Assembly: GCA_030615855.1 (NCBI GenBank)
Contig: JAUWYL010000032.1
Location: 1-9,694, forward strand
DNA from: a bacterium
Lineage (GTDB): Bacteria; UBP18; UBA7526
DNA length: 9,694 bases
Direction: 5' to 3'
Shown here: in pieces, positions 8,202 to 9,694 of the stretch
How positions within the stretch are numbered: the first letter of the stretch is position 1
Layout of the letters: each line of letters begins with the position of its first letter
Notes under the pieces: generated by a model
The model's input: the letters and a program-made list of their open reading frames with translations, nothing else
Told to the model about the DNA's origin: nothing
The model's database searches: none
Position numbers and translations under genes: made by a program

Positions 8202-8300
8202 TCACAGATTCACCCCGCACCTTTGCCTTTTTGAGAAACGATTTCTAAAAAGGTGCGGGGTTCACACAGATTGATTACAGATTTCCGCAGATCACAGATA
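8202..8300. repeat. CACAGATT repeat region in the rny leader, split by an inverted-repeat element
   Basis: Copies or near copies of CACAGATT occur at 8203-8210, 8265-8272, 8275-8283 (TACAGATTT) and 8293-8300 (CACAGATA). The first and second are separated by the inverted-repeat element at 8214-8260. Removing the element and one TTCAC gives two CACAGATT units spaced by 2 bp, the expected tandem arrangement. Confidence 0.6.
8209..8265. mobile_element. Small inverted-repeat (MITE-like) element, copy A, with 5-bp flanking direct repeats
   Basis: The element body is 8214-8260 (47 bp): CCCGCACCTTT at the left end, AAAGGTGCGGGG at the right, and a 24-nt centre containing a smaller AGAAA/TTTCT stem. 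It is flanked by TTCAC at 8209-8213 and 8261-8265. Counting the first flanking base, the arms pair perfectly over 12 bp (8213-8224 with 8249-8260). It interrupts a CACAGATT array and lies 16 nt upstream of the rny ribosome binding site. It encodes no protein, so any mobility would depend on a transposase elsewhere. Confidence 0.7.
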
Positions 8301-8313
8301 ATGAAAATAATTA

Positions 8314-8342
8314 ATTATAATTCGCGTAGATTCGCGTCTTGA
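8314..8342 (-). promoter_or_regulatory. Weak candidate promoter for rny
   Basis: On the minus strand TATAAT (8314-8319) is a perfect -10 hexamer. A 17-bp spacer separates it from TCAAGA (8337-8342), which matches only three of six positions of the -35 consensus. It lies in the 176-bp gap upstream of rny, the most plausible place for an internal promoter in the window. The AT-rich context makes a chance match possible. Confidence 0.25.
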
Positions 8343-8397
8343 TTATCTTTCGTTTCTGCTTTACAGTTCGCGTAGATTCGCGTCAATGATTCGCGTC
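8321..8397. repeat. 18-bp direct repeat (two exact copies and a partial) at the 3' end of the cyclo-ligase gene
   Basis: On the minus strand the unit is GACGCGAATCTACGCGAA, itself two near-identical halves. Exact copies lie at 8321-8338 and 8367-8384, with a partial GACGCGAA at 8390-8397. The second copy and the partial one are translated as the end of the cyclo-ligase (TRIIDANLRE); the first lies in the intergenic region. Confidence 0.85.
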
Positions 8398-8933
8398 TCT
8401 GTTATCACCTTCGAAACCCTTCTATCGTGTTTCTTGCCAGAAATATTTTTTACCACCTGAAAGTTATAGGCCAGCCCAATCAATGGGATTCTTTTGGGGA
8501 TTTTTCTTAAGAAGCGATCGTAGTATCCCAGCCCATATCCTACCCTTCTCCCTTTTAGGTCAAAGGCAATCCCCGGAAGGATGACCAGATCGATCCCTTT
8601 GGGTGTTGCCTTCTTAGAGGCTTCTTTAGGCTCCAGGATGCCAAAGCTTCCCTTTTCTACATCCTTCTCCAGGTCTTTAATCTCACCCAGGTAGATCTCC
8701 CTTCTCCTTACCCTGGGAAGGAGGACTCTCTTTCCTTTCCTGAGGGCCTCCTCCATCATCTCTTTTGTCTTTACCTCGCTCCCTTTTGAGTAGTAGAAGA
8801 GGATGGTATGGGCCTCTTTAAACTCCTTCAGAGAGAAGAGCCTCTTCTTTATTCTGTGGCTCTTCTTCTTTCTTAGATCTTCTGGTTCTTTATCTCTTCT
8901 TGTTAATATCCTCTTTCGCAGGCTTTCCTTCAT
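8361..8933 (-). CDS. ygfA: 5-formyltetrahydrofolate cyclo-ligase
   Basis: This enzyme converts 5-formyl-THF to 5,10-methenyl-THF with ATP hydrolysis and returns stored folate to the pool used by FolD, encoded three genes downstream. At 190 residues it has the normal length. Family features are the basic N-terminal helix KESLRKRILTRRD, YYSKGSEVKT (47-56), the LPRV segment (72-75), ILPGIAFD (118-125) and the ATP-binding GYGLGYYDRFL (132-142, the GxGxGYYDR signature), then HDRRVSKVITE (169-179). The ATG at 8933 overlaps the TGA of rarA by 4 bp (ATGA). The start codon lies in a 5-bp direct repeat bordering an inverted-repeat element, whose arm provides AAAGG as a possible ribosome binding site. 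The last ~10 residues (TRIIDANLREL) are encoded by an 18-bp repeat family that recurs just outside the gene, so the tail is probably acquired. Confidence 0.94.
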   Translation of the reverse strand: MKESLRKRILTRRDKEPEDLRKKKSHRIKKRLFSLKEFKEAHTILFYYSKGSEVKTKEMMEEALRKGKRVLLPRVRRREIYLGEIKDLEKDVEKGSFGILEPKEASKKATPKGIDLVILPGIAFDLKGRRVGYGLGYYDRFLRKIPKRIPLIGLAYNFQVVKNISGKKHDRRVSKVITETRIIDANLREL

Positions 8934-8988
8934 CCCGCACCTTTTTTTGTATCCATCTTCTGCTCCTGCCCAAAGGTGCGGGGTTCAT
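8929..8988. mobile_element. Small inverted-repeat (MITE-like) element, copy B, with 5-bp flanking direct repeats, inside the rarA 3' end
   Basis: The body is 8934-8983 (50 bp): CCCGCACCTTT at the left, AAAGGTGCGGGG at the right, the same ends as copy A. The 27-nt centre differs from copy A. Flanking direct repeats are TTCAT at 8929-8933 and 8984-8988. It is translated as the last residues of RarA (PRTFGQEQKMDTKKGAG) and brings the stop codon. The left direct repeat contains the ATG of the cyclo-ligase. Confidence 0.7.
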
Positions 8989-9694
8989 CTTCAACAATTC
9001 CTTCCCATTCTTCTAATCTCTTCTTTATTCTCGCCTCATAGCCATGTTCCGTGGGCCAATAATATCTTACTTTCTTGGGAAGATATTTTTGCTTGACATA
9101 CCCTCCCTTATATTCATGAGCATACTTATATCCCTTTCCATAACCCAACTTCTTCGCTCCTTCATAATGGGCGTTCTTGAGATGTTTGGGCACTAAAAGG
9201 GTTCTTTTCTCCTCAATATCCTTCAGGGCCTTCTCGATGCCCAGGTAGCTGGCATTCGATTTGGGGGCCGTGGCTATATAGATCGCTGCCTGAGCTAAGG
9301 GGATCCTGGCCTCTGGTAGACCGATAGATTCTGCCGCCCCTAAGGCCGCCTGGGCTAAGACTAAAGCCTGGGGATCGGCATTCCCCACATCCTCACTGGC
9401 ACAGATAACAATCCTTCTTGCGATGAACCTTGGATCCTCTCCGGCAGAGATCATCTTGGCCAGCCAGTATAATGTAGCATCTGGATCAGAGCCCCTCATA
9501 CTCTTAATGAAGGCCGATATGGTATCGTAGTGCTCGTCCTCGCCCCTATCATACCTCAGGGCCTTCTTCTGAATGGACTCCTGGGCCACCTCAAGATTGA
9601 AATCGATTATTCCTTCCTTATCTGGTTTAGTAGTCATGACCCCCAGTTCCAAGGCGTTCAAGGCTTTTCGGGCATCCCCATCACAATAGGTGGC
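8930..9694 (-). CDS. rarA: RarA/MgsA family replication-associated recombination ATPase (partial, N-terminus off the window)
   Basis: RarA (MgsA, eukaryotic WRNIP1) is a clamp-loader-like AAA+ ATPase acting at stalled replication forks. The frame is open from the right edge, giving 254 residues of a protein usually 420-450 long, so the Walker A/B part lies outside. Visible are the sensor-2 stretch GDARKALNALE just inside the edge, EHYDTISAFIKSMRGSDPDA, LYWLAKMISAGEDPRFIARR, the SEDVGNADPQAL block, and the C-terminal tetramerisation region with YKYAHEYKGGYVKQKYLP. An apparent start at 9661 is internal, because the conserved sequence continues to the edge. The last ~18 residues after GIVEDE come from an inverted-repeat element. 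Removing it with one direct repeat would give the tail DEGKPAKEDINKKR ending at 8890-8892. The stop overlaps the cyclo-ligase start by 4 bp. Confidence 0.95.
   Translation of the reverse strand, partial: ATYCDGDARKALNALELGVMTTKPDKEGIIDFNLEVAQESIQKKALRYDRGEDEHYDTISAFIKSMRGSDPDATLYWLAKMISAGEDPRFIARRIVICASEDVGNADPQALVLAQAALGAAESIGLPEARIPLAQAAIYIATAPKSNASYLGIEKALKDIEEKRTLLVPKHLKNAHYEGAKKLGYGKGYKYAHEYKGGYVKQKYLPKKVRYYWPTEHGYEARIKKRLEEWEGIVEDEPRTFGQEQKMDTKKGAG

Follow-up and report, generated by a model that had tools for sequence, protein, structure and literature searches.

The window, meaning the whole 9,694-nt stretch of DNA analysed here, carries two short inverted-repeat elements (copies A and B). 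These are probably non-autonomous, MITE-like members of a dispersed family, whose autonomous form, an element with a GIY-YIG nuclease as its only gene, is the most likely driver of their movement. The family itself is mobile DNA, with empty sites in relatives, nested insertions and target duplications. Taken alone, the window copies are ordinary in shape, and the novelty appears to lie in the class of element to which they lead. With a little less assurance, it is proposed that transposase-free elements with a single Slx1-type nuclease of approximately 85 aa, CCC-starting ends and a TTNA-like 4-bp target are widespread in uncultured phyla and drag 47-140-bp hairpins with them.

Copies A and B and the genes around them

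The pattern CCCGCACCTTTN{15,40}AAAGGTGCGGG has exactly two matches in the window and none in 200 shuffles, so the two inverted-repeat copies reported in the first-pass annotation are real. Both are perfect inverted-repeat elements with TTCA duplicated on either side. Copy A is a 48-bp element (8213..8260, CCCC..GGGG), supported by the pattern search and by identical copies in G002 and G004, with arms at 8213-8224 and 8249-8260 (CCCCGCACCTTT / AAAGGTGCGGGG) and target duplications at 8209..8212 (TTCAC on a 5-bp reading) and 8261..8264. Copy B is a 51-bp element (8933..8983, TCCC..GGGG), supported by the pattern search and by relatives, with arms at 8933-8944 and 8972-8983 and duplications at 8929..8932 and 8984..8987.

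The centres of A and B are unrelated to one another, as had been claimed, but each recurs elsewhere. The 48 bp of copy A are identical at the orthologous site in G002 and also in G004:C100, at a different locus and in the opposite orientation, while copy B is a member of a subfamily with several copies, found in G000, G002, G004 and G005. Copy A (window 8204-8310) and its identical G004 counterpart (L236) both lie within CACAGATT repeats; CACAGATT is a dispersed repeat of these genomes and may be a preferred target or the carrier itself. A different hairpin, with the ends CCCCGTTAGAGG..CCTCTAACGGGG (L205, G004:C118), lies in G004 close to the copy A site and perhaps represents a further family.

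The neighbours of the copies are housekeeping genes, these being a pyruvate/2-oxoacid ferredoxin oxidoreductase subunit, NAD kinase, S4/FtsJ methyltransferase, Dxs, FolD, YmdB, RNase Y, 5-formyltetrahydrofolate cyclo-ligase (5-FCL) and RarA. Copy B is located at the overlap of the last two, both on the minus strand: the 5-FCL gene (8361..8933, PF01812) and the 3′ part of rarA (8930..9694, PF12002), which encodes an MgsA-type AAA+ ATPase and whose frame crosses copy B and stops at its edge. Removal of the B body with one repeat gives back a coherent rarA tail (..VEDEGKPAKEDINKKR and stop) that overlaps the beginning of the gene that follows, in agreement with the first-pass annotation, while with copy B present the C-terminal end of rarA is VEDEPRTFGQEQKMDTKKGAG. 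Over window 8925-8990 the rarA C-terminus is seen rewritten by copy B to PRTFGQEQKMDTKKGAG. The 5-FCL gene starts at a minus-strand ATGAA within the 8929..8932 duplication of copy B, and since this duplication preserved the start codon, both rarA and 5-FCL survive the insertion.

A dispersed and mobile family

The window's genome is a draft of 1.375 Mb in 45 contigs (93.6% complete). The exact half-site CCGCACCTTT occurs 47 times in it, against once for a reversed control, so the motif does recur when searched for genome-wide; the single half-sites L024, L025, L028, L048 and L051 seem to match by chance. Exact short pairs are present in four of the five genomes of the same genus or family and in none of 54 distant genomes, and a looser pattern recovered 48 short elements over all six genomes with none for its reversed control. 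The members are short, non-coding and present in multiple copies, and end in 12-16-bp terminal inverted repeats with the consensus YCCCGCACCTTT. Common ends with different centres point to the ends being what is recognised, as had been suggested. The accompanying view that such centres are unlike an ordinary MITE family did not hold, as they form subfamilies recurring across genomes, like those of MITEs that share one mobilising system.

Comparison of occupied and empty sites in relatives shows that empty sites exist. Site C9 is empty in G001 (flank identity 95%), and sites C43, C34 and C30a are empty in G002. Site C20 is occupied in G002 and empty in G001, G003, G004 and G005, site C44 is occupied in G002 and empty in G003, and site C39 is occupied in G005 and empty in G003; the empty-site test for the L064 site was run separately. 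The copy A site is occupied in G002. The same copy B insertion is found in G005; only one arm is left of it in G001 and G002, and it is missing in G003 and G004, where the flanks are divergent. There are also nested copies, in which elements are inserted within other elements at TGAA/TTCA. At site C30d (L223 vs L047) the orientation of the same 57-bp-type element in G002 is the reverse of that in G000, the result either of in-place inversion or of two insertions at one target.

A perfect 4-bp duplication flanks the element at 41 of 62 independent sites, with re-paired flanks giving a mean of 9.4 and a maximum of 20 in 5000, as befits insertion with target-site duplication. The duplicated words are TTCA/TGAA (23), TTGA/TCAA (14), TTTA/TAAA (3) and CTCA/TGAG (1). 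As these vary together on both sides, they indicate a target preference for TTNA with TTCA the commonest; of the two readings previously offered for the TTCA common to both window copies, target preference therefore stands and TTCAY as a part of the element was rejected. The 5-bp repeats TTCAC and TTCAT noted earlier are literally present, but the family-wide duplication is of 4 bp, and a 5-bp rule was rejected with the agreement of the fifth flanking base being marginal (25/41 vs 20.2 by chance, p~0.03).

Also seen in two species is a 116-bp unit with an 11-bp inverted repeat, CCCCGCACCAT..ATGGTGCGGGG (L007, 478-595; L041, 2418-2531), which in L007 encloses a tRNA-Arg gene, either a captured gene or a chance symmetry.

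GIY-YIG nuclease genes between inverted repeats

The first-pass annotation had proposed a search for a transposase gene with matching ends. None was found in the genomes searched, and the sole gene found between such ends is that of a small Slx1/UPF0213-type GIY-YIG nuclease. In G000:C35, convergent ends enclose approximately 370 bp with a GIY-YIG gene that itself holds a nested short element. A second GIY-YIG gene, bounded by CCCCGCCCCCATTT..AAATGGGGGCGGGG, is located in G000:C30 and at the same site in G002. A 130-bp element of G002 is a truncated derivative, with the first half of a GIY-YIG gene between CCCCGCACCTCC ends, and its site is empty in G000, G003, G004 and G005. The remaining convergent pairs in G000 are MITE-sized; a 2.5-kb pair in G000:C44 was rejected as an IS, as it spans host genes resembling pilM/pilN/pilO. 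Nuclease-carrying copies are few per genome, which weighs against a nuclease-driven model. One TTCA (L073 vs L298) carries the truncated nuclease element in G002 and a family member with an unrelated centre in G001, indicating either a target hot spot or an exchange of centres between common ends.

The protein has a PF01541 match in 37/37 nuclease sequences, and no variation is seen among 82 sequences at Y16, G18, R26, H30, E50, E62 and K66, which include the catalytic Tyr, Arg, His and Glu of the GIY-YIG fold (Y16, R26, H30, E62). Its predicted fold (mean pLDDT 85) matches the UPF0213 protein 1zg2 and Slx1, followed by I-TevI and UvrC domains, and no additional DNA-binding domain was seen in its approximately 85 aa. 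According to PDB titles, Slx1 cleaves branched DNA, and by this likeness it is plausible that the nuclease could recognise its ends as a hairpin or cruciform.

When the nuclease was searched against 84,980 species genomes, 80 loci were recovered, mainly in Omnitrophota and Patescibacteria. Inverted repeats (score at least 12 within 130 bp) bound 56 of these 80 genes, against 6 of 466 control ORFs of similar size from the same loci; no repeat was detected at the other 24, which also weighs against a nuclease-driven model. The bounding repeats mostly start with CCC, and 4-7-bp duplications are frequent, examples being TGAA, TTGA, TATGA, ATAA and TAAA. A duplication of at least 4 bp occurs at 22 of 57 nuclease elements, with 2.1 expected (maximum 8). 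Typical elements measure 275-360 bp, and CCCCGCACCTTTT and CCCCCACACCTTTT are examples of their ends.

Certain locations recur. Three nuclease elements are inserted within 16S rRNA genes, and five terminate at the conserved AGGAAAGTCC of RNase P RNA, with rnpB identified by Rfam at four and no Rfam rnpB match at cut-off for the fifth (L117); their placement is probably in stem P3. A further four, forming one nuclease clade with a common CCCCTCAC end, end at tRNA-Ala genes, and this clade is nearer to site-specific than the window's family.

Mapped on the nuclease tree, the repeat/end class shows 17 changes against 31.3 when shuffled. As end class tracks the tree, gene and ends form a lasting unit, which is not proof that the nuclease acts on the ends, and the result carries limited weight since the same pattern is expected if the two merely descend together. 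Of 15 genomes in which the nuclease element ends in CCCGCACCTT, 6 also have short elements with that end, against 0 of 15 genomes in which the nuclease element ends differently. One Omnitrophota subfamily of short elements with the CCCGCACCTT end has its centre in common with subfamily V of the window's genus. The closest nucleases to that of L058 are from Omnitrophota MAGs and one Planctomycetota MAG (69-77% identity), while among the genomes compared the window's genome has, beyond its own family, no relative nearer than 'domain'. The combination suggests that the nuclease elements have spread horizontally. A phage origin of the genes was rejected, with viral contigs numbering only 6.

Proposed mode of movement and relation to known systems

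We infer that the GIY-YIG nuclease drives the movement. The autonomous form would be an element of approximately 300 bp with one gene for a Slx1/UPF0213-type endonuclease of approximately 85 aa between family ends. The enzyme would recognise the two ends together, in the form either of duplex repeats or of a hairpin/cruciform, and would cut TTNA with a 4-nt stagger. After excision or copying, the element would be joined in by host repair, with gap filling leaving the 4-bp duplication, and short elements that share these ends would be moved in trans.

The main rival, a weakened one which we consider unlikely while still giving it some weight, is that an unseen transposase acting in trans moves all such ends and that the GIY-YIG gene is cargo that promotes retention or homing, the role played by TnpB in IS200/IS605. 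DDE transposition does typically involve inverted repeats and a short duplication of fixed length, and GIY-YIG enzymes are known to us as hydrolytic nucleases, with no strand transfer or joining known for any of them. Against this, the search for three transposase families in the incomplete draft genomes found no DDE_Tnp_1 (IS4/IS5-type) or DDE_Tnp_1_4 (IS1380-type) gene, on which grounds an IS4/IS5 or IS1380 parent was rejected, and no Y1_Tnp (PF01797) in five genomes, with positive controls. For these three families, the transposase with the same ends that is the usual autonomous partner of a MITE is thus lacking. Furthermore, no gene besides GIY-YIG lies between convergent ends in G000, and the ends remain tied to the nuclease across phyla.

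It is very improbable that the elements are instead non-mobile regulatory hairpins or transcription terminators at fixed places, even though as single-stranded DNA copies A and B both fold far more strongly than shuffled sequence, many family hairpins sit at gene ends, and arm pairing is maintained in the subfamilies with CCCCGCACC or CCCCGCCCC ends. Neither window hairpin is followed by a T-run, and the empty sites, duplicated targets and nested copies, together with insertion in coding sequence and nuclease-carrying relatives in 16S rRNA genes, all argue for mobility; secondary regulatory effects are possible. The least probable reading is that of REP/REPIN-type palindromes moved by a RAYT (Y1 HUH transposase), suggested by short, dispersed palindromic units partly near gene ends and opposed by the absence of Y1_Tnp, the 4-bp target duplications and single arms which are not palindromes.

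The preferred reading, of elements driven by their own nuclease, places them beside several known systems. Like the TnpB-only elements of IS200/IS605, they are small mobile elements whose one gene encodes a nuclease; the TnpB-only elements lack the inverted-repeat and target-duplication anatomy, depend on TnpA (Y1) in trans and have a different nuclease fold. With bacterial MITEs (reviewed in PMC10969869) the short elements have in common the non-coding form, inverted ends, duplicated target, many copies and recurrent centre subfamilies, but here the partner that has the same ends encodes a GIY-YIG nuclease rather than a transposase, and that review has no mention of GIY-YIG. REP/RAYT systems (PMC2817692, PMC3733652) likewise combine dispersed palindromic elements with a partner enzyme gene, whereas no Y1 transposase was found here and the target is duplicated. 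Casposons (PMC4046053) also combine terminal inverted repeats and target duplications with an enzyme of non-classical type, but are large and use Cas1 in place of one GIY-YIG gene of approximately 85 aa.

The I-TevI-type homing endonuclease genes (PMC1564403) are also selfish GIY-YIG genes, and some of the relatives described here similarly occupy fixed sites (16S rRNA, tRNA-Ala, beside rnpB). However, the present elements differ in having inverted ends, short duplications of fixed length and non-autonomous derivatives and in occupying many unrelated sites, with no intron or added DNA-binding domain seen. Where a homing gene would have one conserved site and no duplication, the window's family has many sites with 4-bp duplications. 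GIY-YIG ORFs have been described in rRNA genes of Patescibacteria (CPR), where the insertions are called sparse and outside homing and the main text makes no mention of inverted repeats (PMC11270868). In open-access full text, no description was found of GIY-YIG elements bounded by inverted repeats in bacteria, and within that literature this type of mobile element appears to be undescribed.

If this is true, the elements would constitute a new mobile-element class of approximately 300 bp, common in candidate phyla and based on a nuclease fold with no known role in transposition. They would account for unassigned short palindromes in those phyla, for GIY-YIG insertions in 16S rRNA genes and beside RNase P RNA and tRNA-Ala genes, and for rewritten coding ends such as that of rarA. 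They would also raise the question of whether a minimal hydrolytic nuclease together with host repair can stand in place of a transposase. Other GIY-YIG genes, at L063, L066, L071 and L057, have tRNA-Ser or tRNA-Asn genes as neighbours, show partial duplication of the tRNA, lack family ends, and are perhaps a tRNA-directed relative.
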